Source: Parafilimonas terrae (GTDB lineage: Bacteria > Bacteroidota > Bacteroidia > Chitinophagales > Chitinophagaceae). From it: a stretch of DNA of 64,000 bases. Every line of letters begins with the position of its first letter. Positions within the stretch are counted from its first letter, which is position 1. Of the stretch, positions 60,218 to 62,059 are shown piece by piece. The stretch lies in contig NZ_FOXQ01000018.1 of assembly GCF_900115755.1 (NCBI RefSeq), forward strand, positions 1 to 64,000. Reading direction: 5' to 3'. A program made the translations under genes and the position numbers. The notes beneath the pieces were generated by a model. The model searched no databases and was not told where the DNA came from. It saw only the letters and a list, made by a program, of their open reading frames with translations.

Positions 60218-60889
60218 CTATAATGCCCAATCAATTGGTTGTTGTTTTTGCTTTACGAGGTATTCATTTGTTTTACTGAAATGCCGGCAGCCAAAAAAAC
60301 CTTTATCAGCACTGAAGGGAGAAGGATGTGCTGCTTTTAAAACATAGTGTTTGCTTTGATCTATGAGCTCCTGTTTCTGATGTGCAAACGAGCCCCATAA
60401 TAAAAACACGATGCCTTCTTTTTCATCAGATACTTTTTTAATTACAGCATCTGTAAACTGGTGCCAGCCAATCTTTGCATGAGAATTTGGCTCACCTGCA
60501 CGCACCGTCAAAGCAGCGTTTAATAACATAACACCTTGTTCTGCCCATGGCGTTAAATCGCCGGTAGCTGGTATAGGTATGCCAACGTCATTATGTAATT
60601 CTTTAAAAATATTAATGAGTGAAGGCGGCTGCCGTATGCCTTTTGGAACGGAGAAAGATAAACCCATTGCCTGGCCCTGGCCATGATATGGGTCTTGTCC
60701 TAATAACAGAACTTTTAATTTATTAAATGGTGTTTTTTCAAAAGCGTTAAATATCAATGAGCCGGGCGGGTAAATAATTTTACCCTGCGCTTTTTCTGTT
60801 TTAAGAAAAGCCGCTATATTTTCAAAGTAAGATTTGGAAAACTCAGCTTGTAAAACATTCTTCCAGCTTTCTTCTATTTTAACATCCAT
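60218..60889 (-). CDS. ung: Uracil-DNA glycosylase
   Basis: Ung removes uracil from DNA at the start of base-excision repair. The 223-residue protein has the catalytic motif GQDPYHGQGQAMGLSFSV (Asp66), the WAEQGVMLLNAALTV stretch and the HPSPFSADKGFFGCRHF motif. These are diagnostic of family 1 Ung. It is divergent from the tRNA gene downstream. Confidence 0.97.
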   Translation of the reverse strand: MDVKIEESWKNVLQAEFSKSYFENIAAFLKTEKAQGKIIYPPGSLIFNAFEKTPFNKLKVLLLGQDPYHGQGQAMGLSFSVPKGIRQPPSLINIFKELHNDVGIPIPATGDLTPWAEQGVMLLNAALTVRAGEPNSHAKIGWHQFTDAVIKKVSDEKEGIVFLLWGSFAHQKQELIDQSKHYVLKAAHPSPFSADKGFFGCRHFSKTNEYLVKQKQQPIDWAL

Positions 60890-60952
60890 ACCGTACGCTT
60901 TAGGTTTGGCTGCAAACTAATTAAAAATTACTTTTGCGGCGTTTATACTAAT

Positions 60953-61026
60953 GGTTCGGTAGCTCAGCTGGATAGAGCAACTGCCTTCTAAGCAGTAGGT
61001 CATTGGTTCGAATCCAATCCGGATCA
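60953..61026 (+). tRNA. tRNA-Arg (anticodon TCT)
   Basis: The 74-base gene folds into a full cloverleaf: acceptor stem GGTTCGG with CCGGATC (two GU pairs), D-stem GCTC/GAGC, anticodon stem ACTGC/GCAGT around CTTCTAA, and T-stem ATTGG/CCAAT with TTCGAAT. Discriminator A is at 61026. It is followed by its own terminator and then a GIY-YIG gene. Confidence 0.96.
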
Positions 61027-61033
61027 CTTTAAG

Positions 61034-61056
61034 CCTCTTACGTAAGAGGTTTTTTT
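61034..61056 (+). terminator. Terminator of tRNA-Arg
   Basis: CCTCTTAC and GTAAGAGG form an 8-bp perfect stem (61034-61049), followed by seven Ts that end 3 bases before the first GIY-YIG start codon. Confidence 0.9.
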
Positions 61057-61059
61057 ATT

Positions 61060-61311
61060 ATGACTGCGTATTGCTATATATTATTCAGCGCTAAACTTAA
61101 CAAATACTATATCGGCTCAACAACAGATATTGAAAGAAGACTGGCTGAACATAATCGCGGCAAAGAAAAGTTTACCCAAACAGGTATACCATGGATTTTA
61201 GTTTATAAAGAAGTTTTCTCAGAATTAAAACCGGCGAGGCAAAGAGAGTTTTACATTAAGAAAATGAAAAGCAGGTTATTTATTGAAAAACTGATTAGTT
61301 CAGTTGGATAG
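61060..61311 (+). CDS. GIY-YIG endonuclease-like protein, copy 1
   Basis: The 83-residue protein is a single GIY-YIG domain: CYILFSAKLNKYYIGSTTD carries the YIL...YIG core, RRLAEHNRG has the catalytic-type Arg, and ELKPARQREFYIKKMKSR has the conserved Glu region. Short stand-alone GIY-YIG proteins are common in Bacteroidota and related to UvrC-type nucleases. Its last codons and stop lie inside the D-arm of a tRNA-like sequence. The protein is the same as that at 61395-61646. Confidence 0.92.
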   Translation: MTAYCYILFSAKLNKYYIGSTTDIERRLAEHNRGKEKFTQTGIPWILVYKEVFSELKPARQREFYIKKMKSRLFIEKLISSVG

Positions 61312-61364
61312 AGCATCCCGATTTCTAATCGGGAAGGTCATTGGTTCGAATCCTGTCCGGATCA
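61289..61364 (+). pseudogene. tRNA-Arg(TCT)-like sequence, copy 1, without a pairing acceptor 5' strand
   Basis: From the D-stem (61298) onward it looks like a tRNA: D-arm GTTC/GAGC, anticodon stem CCCGA/TCGGG around TTTCTAA (anticodon TCT), T-loop TTCGAAT with one T-stem mismatch, and the 3' end CCGGATCA shared with the real tRNA-Arg. The seven bases where the acceptor 5' strand should be (AACTGAT) belong to the GIY-YIG gene and do not pair. It is probably non-functional as a tRNA. Confidence 0.8.
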
Positions 61365-61394
61365 CTTTAAGCCTCTTGCCAAGGCTTTTTTATT

Positions 61395-61646
61395 ATGACT
61401 GCGTATTGCTATATATTATTCAGCGCTAAACTTAACAAATACTATATCGGCTCAACAACAGATATTGAAAGAAGACTGGCTGAACATAATCGCGGCAAAG
61501 AAAAGTTTACCCAAACAGGTATACCATGGATTTTAGTTTATAAAGAAGTTTTCTCAGAATTAAAACCGGCGAGGCAAAGAGAGTTTTACATTAAGAAAAT
61601 GAAAAGCAGGTTATTTATTGAAAAACTGATTAGTTCAGTTGGATAG
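61395..61646 (+). CDS. GIY-YIG endonuclease-like protein, copy 2
   Basis: This 83-residue protein is the same as copy 1, with the same YIL...YIG core and the same stop codon within the following tRNA-like D-arm. Two nearly identical tandem copies of such a small gene are unusual. The DNA is also the same in both copies as far as I can read. Confidence 0.92.
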   Translation: MTAYCYILFSAKLNKYYIGSTTDIERRLAEHNRGKEKFTQTGIPWILVYKEVFSELKPARQREFYIKKMKSRLFIEKLISSVG

Positions 61647-61699
61647 AGCATCCCGATTTCTAATCGGGAAGGTCATTGGTTCGAATCCAATCCGGATCA
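61624..61699 (+). pseudogene. tRNA-Arg(TCT)-like sequence, copy 2, without a pairing acceptor 5' strand
   Basis: This matches the first tRNA-like sequence but has a perfect T-stem (ATTGG/CCAAT) and the same 3' part as the real tRNA-Arg (AATCCGGATCA). The acceptor 5' strand is again replaced by the GIY-YIG gene end. A complete terminator follows. Confidence 0.8.
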
Positions 61700-61703
61700 C
61701 TTT

Positions 61704-61728
61704 AAGCCTCTTGCCAAGAGGCTTTTTT
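61704..61728 (+). terminator. Terminator of the second tRNA-like unit
   Basis: AAGCCTCTT and AAGAGGCTT form a 9-bp stem around GCC, followed by a T-run. The first unit has the same element with a 2-base deletion in the right arm. Confidence 0.85.
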
Positions 61729-61731
61729 ATT

Positions 61732-61802
61732 GTGCATATCATTGCCATTATTATTCAGCCTAAGCTTAACAATTATTATATTGATTCTGCAAATCGTTCA
61801 AA
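61732..61802 (+). pseudogene. Decayed third GIY-YIG copy
   Basis: Directly after the second terminator a GTG begins a reading HIIAIIIQPKLNNYYIDSANR, which lines up with AYCYILFSAKLNKYYIGSTTD of the intact copies. DNA similarity is clear over about 60 bases and then stops. It is a remnant of an older unit. Confidence 0.78.
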
Positions 61803-61808
61803 CACAAT

Positions 61809-61838
61809 AATGCGGTTGAAGTTAAATCCAACCGCATT
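61809..61838 (+). terminator. Hairpin after the decayed GIY-YIG copy
   Basis: AATGCGGTTG and CAACCGCATT form a 10-bp stem followed by Ts. It may also insulate the convergent small gene at 61853. Confidence 0.7.
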
Positions 61839-61852
61839 TTTATCAGAGGCCG

Positions 61853-62059
61853 TTATTTTATTGTTCTTATTTCCGGGTCTTCCTTATCTTTTTGATCATT
61901 CTCTTTAGCCTTTTCTTCTATTTTATGCATTACTGAAGAAAAAGGCCCTCTCATGTGCTCTTGCGGATCGGTGGTGTTCAACGTTTCAGGATCGGGCTTA
62001 CTGCCCGCATTCTTATTGGAATTATCAGGCTGTACCTTTTCTCTTTTTTCGTCTGCCAT
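61853..62059 (-). CDS. Small hydrophilic protein, 68 aa
   Basis: This protein, starting MADEKREKVQPDNSNKNAG, is highly charged and Asp/Glu/Lys/Pro/Asn-rich, so probably disordered. I do not recognise a family. Its composition is like that of a stress-type or coat-type small protein, but that is a guess. It is convergent with the GIY-YIG array. Confidence 0.65.
   Translation of the reverse strand: MADEKREKVQPDNSNKNAGSKPDPETLNTTDPQEHMRGPFSSVMHKIEEKAKENDQKDKEDPEIRTIK

Follow-up and report, generated by a model that had tools for sequence, protein, structure and literature searches.

Among the closest described counterparts of the locus reported here is the gene for SegB of phages T4 and T6, a free-standing GIY-YIG homing endonuclease encoded beside tRNA genes. 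SegB cleaves DNA within tRNA genes and brings about tandem amplification of tRNA and segB, which requires both the nuclease activity and homologous recombination; no tRNA isotype is reported to be favored (PMC13096335). A GIY-YIG gene likewise adjoins tRNA genes, with tandem repeats of tRNA and nuclease gene, in the 64,000-nt stretch of Parafilimonas terrae DNA that was analyzed (contig NZ_FOXQ01000018.1, positions 1 to 64,000; hereafter, the window). The SegB motif, RAWTSGAAC, reads to us as the complement of the tRNA T-loop. The conserved GIY-YIG residues and the empty and filled alleles of SegB-type homing are also present here, the latter between species of one genus. SegB is phage-borne, whereas our nuclease had no match in a phage collection at 1e-5, and the lineages described below are specific for a tRNA type, unlike what is reported for SegB. 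The protein also differs in being a single 83-aa domain, usually accompanied by dead tRNA copies, most of which are hairpin-swapped, i.e., carry a hairpin in place of the anticodon arm. Finally, in classical homing the occupied allele loses its target, but here the filled locus retains an intact tRNA.

Group I introns with homing endonucleases occur in tRNA anticodon loops, and the anticodon arm is likewise the affected site in our copies. Unlike in these introns, however, the tRNA is kept through duplication and not through splicing, and an Rfam scan of positions 60800-61950 gave no group I intron at E up to 1. Short hairpin modules that occur with and without an enzyme gene, as ours do, are also known from REP sequences with their RAYT transposases and from MITE-like non-autonomous copies. 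The REP/RAYT enzyme is a Y1 (HUH) transposase, whereas ours is a GIY-YIG protein; in contrast to REP sequences, moreover, the present modules are tRNA-bound (of the 30 loci retrieved with the strict core pattern given below, 27 lie within 500 nt of an intact tRNA), and the hairpin pattern of the window occurs at only 3 places in 4.99 Mb. Single-domain GIY-YIG proteins of the UPF0213/Slx1 kind are alike in fold and sequence (1zg2; Slx1 at 6e-3) and, to our knowledge, are not known as parts of tRNA-linked modules. Neither tRNA-linked GIY-YIG modules nor hairpin-swapped tRNA copies in bacterial chromosomes are described in the open-access PMC literature (titles and beginnings of abstracts, among the matches listed), and the cited part of a 2006 survey of the GIY-YIG superfamily makes no mention of such modules (PMC1564403).

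Layout of the tRNA-Arg locus and its nuclease

The initial annotation placed two 335-bp units, each with a GIY-YIG ORF and a tRNA-like sequence, behind tRNA-Arg(TCT), a layout borne out by ARAGORN, Rfam, and Pfam (Table 1). The units are equal at 332 of 335 positions without gaps, and the ~303 bp said to be common to them correspond to a longest exact match of 303 bp (61051 vs. 61386). The decayed third GIY-YIG copy that it also proposed is real: its local score is 38, whereas 1000 shuffles reached 20 at most. The two complete ORFs encode identical proteins. Because the units differ from each other, namely in the T-arm and the terminator, and because tandem copies also occur in single-contig genomes (G055 and G113), an assembly artifact was judged unlikely. 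Four flanking proteins were scanned: an SDR and a UDG lie before the locus, and a protein without a match and a nucleoside transporter lie after it.

Table 1. Features of the tRNA-Arg locus (positions in the window)
Feature	Position	Strand	Evidence
Promoter-like block (TTTGGCTGCAAACTAATTAAAAATTACTTTTGCG), conserved in genus	60905..60938	+	Near-identical across genus loci
Intact tRNA-Arg (TCT), single functional copy	60953..61027	+	ARAGORN; Rfam tRNA (RF00005) 69.7 bits
Terminator-like hairpin and T-run after tRNA	61034..61056	+	Inverted repeat 61034-61049, then T
GIY-YIG nuclease ORF, unit 1, 83 aa	61060..61311	+	Pfam GIY-YIG (PF01541), E = 1.4e-15; invariant residues; AlphaFold2
Hairpin-swapped partial tRNA-Arg copy 1, without 5′ acceptor strand	61295..61365	+	Rfam tRNA 29.1 bits
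Hairpin H (TCCCGATTTCTAATCGGGA) replacing anticodon arm, unit 1	61316..61334	+	
tRNA trailer and terminator copy, unit 1	61366..61391	+	Direct repeat family D2
GIY-YIG nuclease ORF, unit 2, identical to unit 1 (83 aa)	61395..61646	+	
Hairpin-swapped partial tRNA-Arg copy 2; hairpin 61651-61669	61630..61700	+	Rfam tRNA 35.4 bits
Terminator-like hairpin and T-run after copy 2	61704..61728	+	Inverted repeat 61704-61724, then T
Decayed start of third GIY-YIG unit	61719..61792	+	Score 38 vs. shuffle maximum 20

Each ORF had been described as fused to the tRNA-like sequence. The two do overlap, the TAG stop codon of the ORF being supplied by the tRNA D-stem motif TAGAGC, but this is no fusion of the ORF with an RNA gene. 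The tRNA-like parts are indeed tRNA-derived; they are, however, partial copies of tRNA-Arg and not tRNAs, with only low scores against the Rfam tRNA model and, in the alignment of copy 2, 4 of 7 acceptor positions absent on the 5′ side. Both copies retain the T-arm and 3′ end of the tRNA, and the 17-nt anticodon arm, ACTGCCTTCTAAGCAGT in the real tRNA-Arg, is replaced with a 19-nt hairpin (TCCCGATTTCTAATCGGGA) of the type TCCCG..CGGGA, designated H. ARAGORN labels these dead copies (61288-61369 and 61623-61704) as tRNA-Arg, and similar copies in relatives are labeled tRNA-Ile, tRNA-Stop, or tRNA-???, polluting tRNA annotation.

The nuclease was modeled by AlphaFold2 as one compact 83-aa domain (mean pLDDT 91.5), with no separate DNA-binding domain beside the nuclease domain. 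Residues Y6, Y17, R27, H31, and E63 are invariant in 25 sequences, and we take their catalytic roles to be those assigned from I-TevI. Foldseek found UPF0213 protein BH0048 (1zg2, E 5.3e-5) to be the nearest structure, followed by Slx1 (6e-3), with I-TevI further away, and phmmer also matched BH0048 (E 2.1e-6). As Slx1-Slx4 acts on branched DNA according to the title of structure 6seh, hairpin or branched DNA would by analogy be a plausible substrate.

Copies of the nuclease gene within arrays differ chiefly by silent changes (summed dN/dS 0.15). From 34 pairs, 6 of them identical and 7 outside the dS range, 21 were scored (dS 0.05-1.5), and dN was below dS in all 21, although pairs from the same array are not independent; one out-of-range pair had dN above dS, from a single change. 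As judged by these comparisons, the ORF is shown to be under purifying selection. A phage or plasmid origin was set aside, since neither the phage collection nor plasmids gave a match at 1e-5. Three weak matches were obtained in IMG/VR, with no tRNAs in the fetched stretches, and the hairpin core was present in two viral contigs, one of them with a tRNA-Lys.

Partial tRNA copies and modules without the nuclease gene

Copies of the upstream tRNA were sought behind the ORF in 101 regions, five of which were not chosen by protein; six regions were too short and were dropped. In 68 of the 95 testable regions the T-arm of the upstream tRNA was repeated after the ORF, 33 of them with a TCCCG..CGGGA arm, and the other 27 yielded no T-arm copy. 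When the arm was anchored from either side in a second pass, 62 downstream copies could be placed, whose anticodon arm was native in 10 (six at tRNA-Pro) and non-native in 52. The replaced arm is mostly a hairpin, since 285 of 364 positions pair (shuffle mean 222, maximum 245). Even the inner two arm positions pair in 79 of 104 cases (shuffle maximum 62), and they do so through changed but matching bases, which indicates that the hairpin is selected. Identity to the host tRNA was 91 percent in the 25 nt after the arm and 66 percent in the 16 nt before it. A strict search for a 4-bp D-stem succeeded in 1 of 52 copies, yet in only 10 of 52 host tRNAs, making this a weak test. Among 52 ORFs with a hairpin-swapped copy behind them, 36 have their stop codon in the 26 tRNA-derived positions that lead up to the hairpin, as had been anticipated from the window, and in 24 of the 52 it is exactly the TAG of TAGAGC.

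A mirror set was found on the other side of the tRNA, where 91 copies of the tRNA 5′ part lie 5′ of an intact tRNA at 66 loci, some of these loci having been picked by the hairpin pattern. Fifty of the 91 arms start with TCCCG, 5 are native, and 36 are neither. Where the extent could be measured, 61 of 75 upstream copies continued 6 to 18 nt beyond the arm, into the variable loop or T-arm. Placement 3′ of the tRNA, as initially proposed, holds for the window, but copies also occur 5′ of the tRNA and without a nuclease gene.

The latter were examined with a strict core pattern, GAGCR-TCCCG..CGGGA-RGGTC. Of 147 family genomes, 31 contained this core, with 84 occurrences in total, and in a phylum-wide sample of 148 genomes it was present in 13; a reversed control pattern had no match in either set. 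Among the 30 loci fetched by this core, 27 lay within 500 nt of an intact tRNA, and a nuclease ORF was present at only 9 within the fetched ~1.5 kb on each side. The longest run of such modules noted here consists of eight hairpin-swapped tRNA-Thr units at an exact spacing of 86 bp (L159/L117; G130, C22), located between tRNA-Thr and the apparent start of tuf, with no nuclease gene within the fetched stretch. A nuclease match was present in 29 of the 31 strict-core genomes vs. 60 of the 116 others (Fisher p 8e-6), leaving two strict-core genomes with modules and no nuclease match.

Dispersal of H as a genome-wide palindrome was unsupported for the two types searched in the P. terrae genome. 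The pattern TCCCGATN{0,8}ATCGGGA has 3 sites in the 4.99 Mb, including those in the two window units, and CTGCCTGN{0,14}CAGGCAG has 6 sites, including two in an element at tRNA-Glu. TCCCG hairpins without tRNA context do exist in relatives, at 5 per 400 kb of control DNA. Another palindrome, of the CCTGCCTG..CAGGCAGG type, was observed in the T-loop after GGTTC or a similar sequence in partial copies at L003, L205, L044, and L128.

Linkage of nuclease and tRNA genes across genomes

The P. terrae genome (4.99 Mb) contained 8 matches to the nuclease protein at E up to 1. Two tandem nuclease copies lie behind tRNA-Glu, the copy nearer the tRNA having an internal TAG, and one copy lies behind tRNA-Met; each of these nuclease copies is followed by a partial copy of its site's own tRNA with the trailer. 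Three further matches (L006 and L008 on C28, and L007 on C32) had no ARAGORN tRNA within the fetched 3.2 kb. L006 and L008 are two closely similar GIY-YIG genes without a tRNA link that fall in a separate clade, and their surroundings resemble dispersed repeats (TCATTTCGAAGGAGCATTGC...GACTGAGAAATCTCC); possibly, they represent a second repeat-associated GIY-YIG element.

Within the family, 89 of 147 genomes had a nuclease match (E up to 0.001). Sampled loci comprised 49 from named genomes, 60 further family matches taken down the ranking from among those listed, and 30 more, out of 46 listed matches, from nine genomes whose loci are titled as other phyla. After overlaps were merged, 169 regions remained, of which 162 had been picked by protein alone; subtraction of those from the nine genomes left 132 Bacteroidota-type regions, although two of these (L052 and L064) bear MAG titles of other phyla. 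An ARAGORN tRNA lay within 250 nt on the same strand in 103 of the 132 (upstream in 84, downstream in 11, and on both sides in 8), and 16 more had the hairpin only; five ended at a contig end and eight had neither tRNA nor hairpin context. With edge regions set aside, 92 of 127 Bacteroidota-type regions had an upstream tRNA vs. 2 of 324 control genes, the controls being gene-size ORFs from 400 kb of five family genomes containing 4 tRNAs, scored for a same-strand tRNA within 250 nt upstream. In the nine genomes, which are titled as Patescibacteria groups, Omnitrophota, or Neomarinimicrobiota, 18 of 30 regions had an ARAGORN tRNA at the same distance and strand (downstream in 14, upstream in 2, both in 2), two ended at a contig end, and 10 had neither context. 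Since ARAGORN may label a dead copy as a tRNA (e.g., the "tRNA-Leu" of L010 is a hairpin-swapped Lys copy), these counts may include a few such cases. The locus in the window is confirmed as one case of a recurrent arrangement. We also observed 13 GIY-YIG matches in the 0.9-Mb Yanofskybacteria genome that contains L061 (G176). Numerous draft contigs stop at or inside arrays (L042, L043, L045, L048, L165, L171, L198, and others), as expected if the repeats break assemblies.

The tree of 162 nucleases follows the amino acid of the linked tRNA, as 39 changes suffice for 118 labeled rows and 15 states, whereas shuffled labels required 87 changes on average and never fewer than 78 (500 shuffles). 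This tree was built from 81 columns, with 77 of its 159 inner branches unresolved, and its rows are the 169 regions minus seven of short coverage, six rows being from loci not chosen by protein; L010 and rows with tRNA type ??? or Stop were left out of the shuffle test. The nuclease lineages are thus specific for a tRNA type, and the linkage is recurrent: the linked tRNAs of the tree set cover 15 amino acids, and genomes that bear titles of other phyla show it as well.

Empty and filled tRNA sites, the comparison of which had been proposed at the outset, both exist within the genus of the window, where tRNA-Arg adjoins the UDG gene. The tRNA-Arg locus is empty in four species (loci L154, L155, L157, and L158; genomes G007, G149, G147, and G107), with neither a nuclease match nor a TCCCG hairpin in the fetched stretch. 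It is filled in three, i.e., the window species (G000), G150, and G151, with nuclease units 3′ of tRNA-Arg, the unit of G151 being interrupted by a contig end; one other member of the genus, G148, gave no tRNA-Arg match. In the window and in the four empty loci, a near-identical promoter block immediately precedes the intact tRNA-Arg, whereas in L153 and L156 (G150 and G151) it lies ahead of a hairpin-swapped 5′ copy and the intact tRNA is shifted downstream. It follows that modules either entered at a tRNA gene that was already there, to one or the other side of it or among its parts, or were lost from the empty species. The intact tRNA is identical between filled L153 and empty L158; an altered, cut-resistant tRNA in filled species, another candidate, was not seen in this comparison. 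As a filled locus retains an intact tRNA, the presumed target survives, in contrast to classical homing.

Nuclease and UDG identities to the window run parallel in the Arg group (80/74, 77/71, 69/69, 68/68, and 76-80/88 percent, nuclease/UDG), which argues against frequent jumping and, on this sequence evidence, fits mainly vertical descent with losses. Recent horizontal transfer in this group is unsupported, the nuclease having diverged in parallel with UDG. The early view of a small element that repeatedly inserts or duplicates at a tRNA locus is well supported by the linkage, the empty and filled loci, and the placement of the stop codon; its extension to recent jumping between lineages is not, because nuclease divergence tracks that of UDG.

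A model for amplification at tRNA loci and its alternatives

On balance, we think it probable, by a modest measure, that these modules constitute a family of minimal selfish elements of tRNA loci, amplified by nuclease-triggered homologous recombination, with cutting and mobility presumed from the comparisons above. A module would consist of a dead tRNA copy with H for its anticodon arm, to which the complete form would add the gene of a one-domain GIY-YIG endonuclease. The nuclease would break the DNA of the tRNA locus at the anticodon-arm or T-arm region, and the break would then be repaired through the tRNA halves by homologous recombination. Pairing via the 3′ half would yield the order tRNA, gene, broken copy, as in the window, and pairing via the 5′ half would yield a broken copy, with or without the gene, ahead of the tRNA; out-of-register repair would add tandem units. 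For a GIY-YIG enzyme that breaks the DNA of tRNA genes and so amplifies them by recombination, SegB is an experimentally tested precedent (PMC13096335). Retention of the intact tRNA would let the host survive, and gene-less modules could persist as non-autonomous copies. The tRNA-type specificity of the lineages may reflect the specificity of the enzyme or merely a requirement for homology, and H might act as a signal to the enzyme, as a replacement that resists cutting, or in both ways. Conservation of the H sequence across tRNA types is not accounted for by the selfish-element model.

Alternatively, tRNA repeats might recombine unaided in passive tandem duplications, a housekeeping repair gene of the UPF0213/Slx1 kind having been caught beside tRNAs. 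That the nearest structure is UPF0213 BH0048, that ORF-less modules form arrays too, and that nuclease divergence tracks UDG at the Arg locus are all in keeping with this, but it does not predict that 52 of 62 downstream copies should have the arm replaced, or that just 5 of 91 upstream copies should keep the native one. Recurrence of the linkage with tRNAs for 15 amino acids in the tree set, and in genomes that bear titles of other phyla, also argues against passive duplication, as do purifying selection within arrays (all 21 scored pairs, with the above caveat on their independence) and the co-occurrence of the strict core with the nuclease (p 8e-6), and we consider it unlikely.

Somewhat less likely still is a system acting on RNA, in which the enzyme would cut a given tRNA at its anticodon arm, as a toxin or in phage defense, and the swapped copies would be uncleavable decoy RNAs. 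Such decoys fit poorly with the downstream copies, which have no 5′ acceptor strand and share only 66 percent identity with the host tRNA over the 16 nt before the arm, and modules occur in two genomes without a nuclease match. GIY-YIG enzymes, moreover, are known mainly as DNA nucleases. Points in favor of an RNA-level system are the tRNA-type specificity of the nuclease lineages, the pairing of the arm halves through changed but matching bases, and the arraying of the copies, since tandem arrays by a nuclease gene recall type III toxin-antitoxin loci. A remnant of an integrase-type island or satellite with tRNA genes as attachment sites, which would explain an insert flanked by partial tRNA duplications, is very improbable, because islands of this type carry an integrase and none is present among the four flanking proteins scanned, the insert is only ~335 bp per unit with copies that carry a hairpin, and there is no phage or plasmid match at 1e-5.

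A broader form of the selfish-element model is more tentative. It is conceivable, but somewhat short of probable, that the hairpin-swapped tRNA modules represent a new class of mobile element, autonomous with the one-domain GIY-YIG nuclease or non-autonomous without it. In Bacteroidota and Patescibacteria alike, such elements would spread and multiply at tRNA genes of a given type through homologous recombination set off by the nuclease; no transposase, integrase, or intron would be involved, and H would be the recognition signal of the enzyme. The findings pose the question of why most extra tRNA copies carry one kind of hairpin in place of the anticodon arm. If the selfish-element model is true, a recurrent selfish element would reside at tRNA genes of many Bacteroidota and of some bacteria with tiny genomes. 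Automatic annotation would split this element into a small GIY-YIG protein and spurious tRNAs, and the element would probably explain the ending of some draft contigs at tRNA loci. It would also provide a chromosomal counterpart to phage SegB and a natural system for how a nuclease alters the copy number of tRNA genes.
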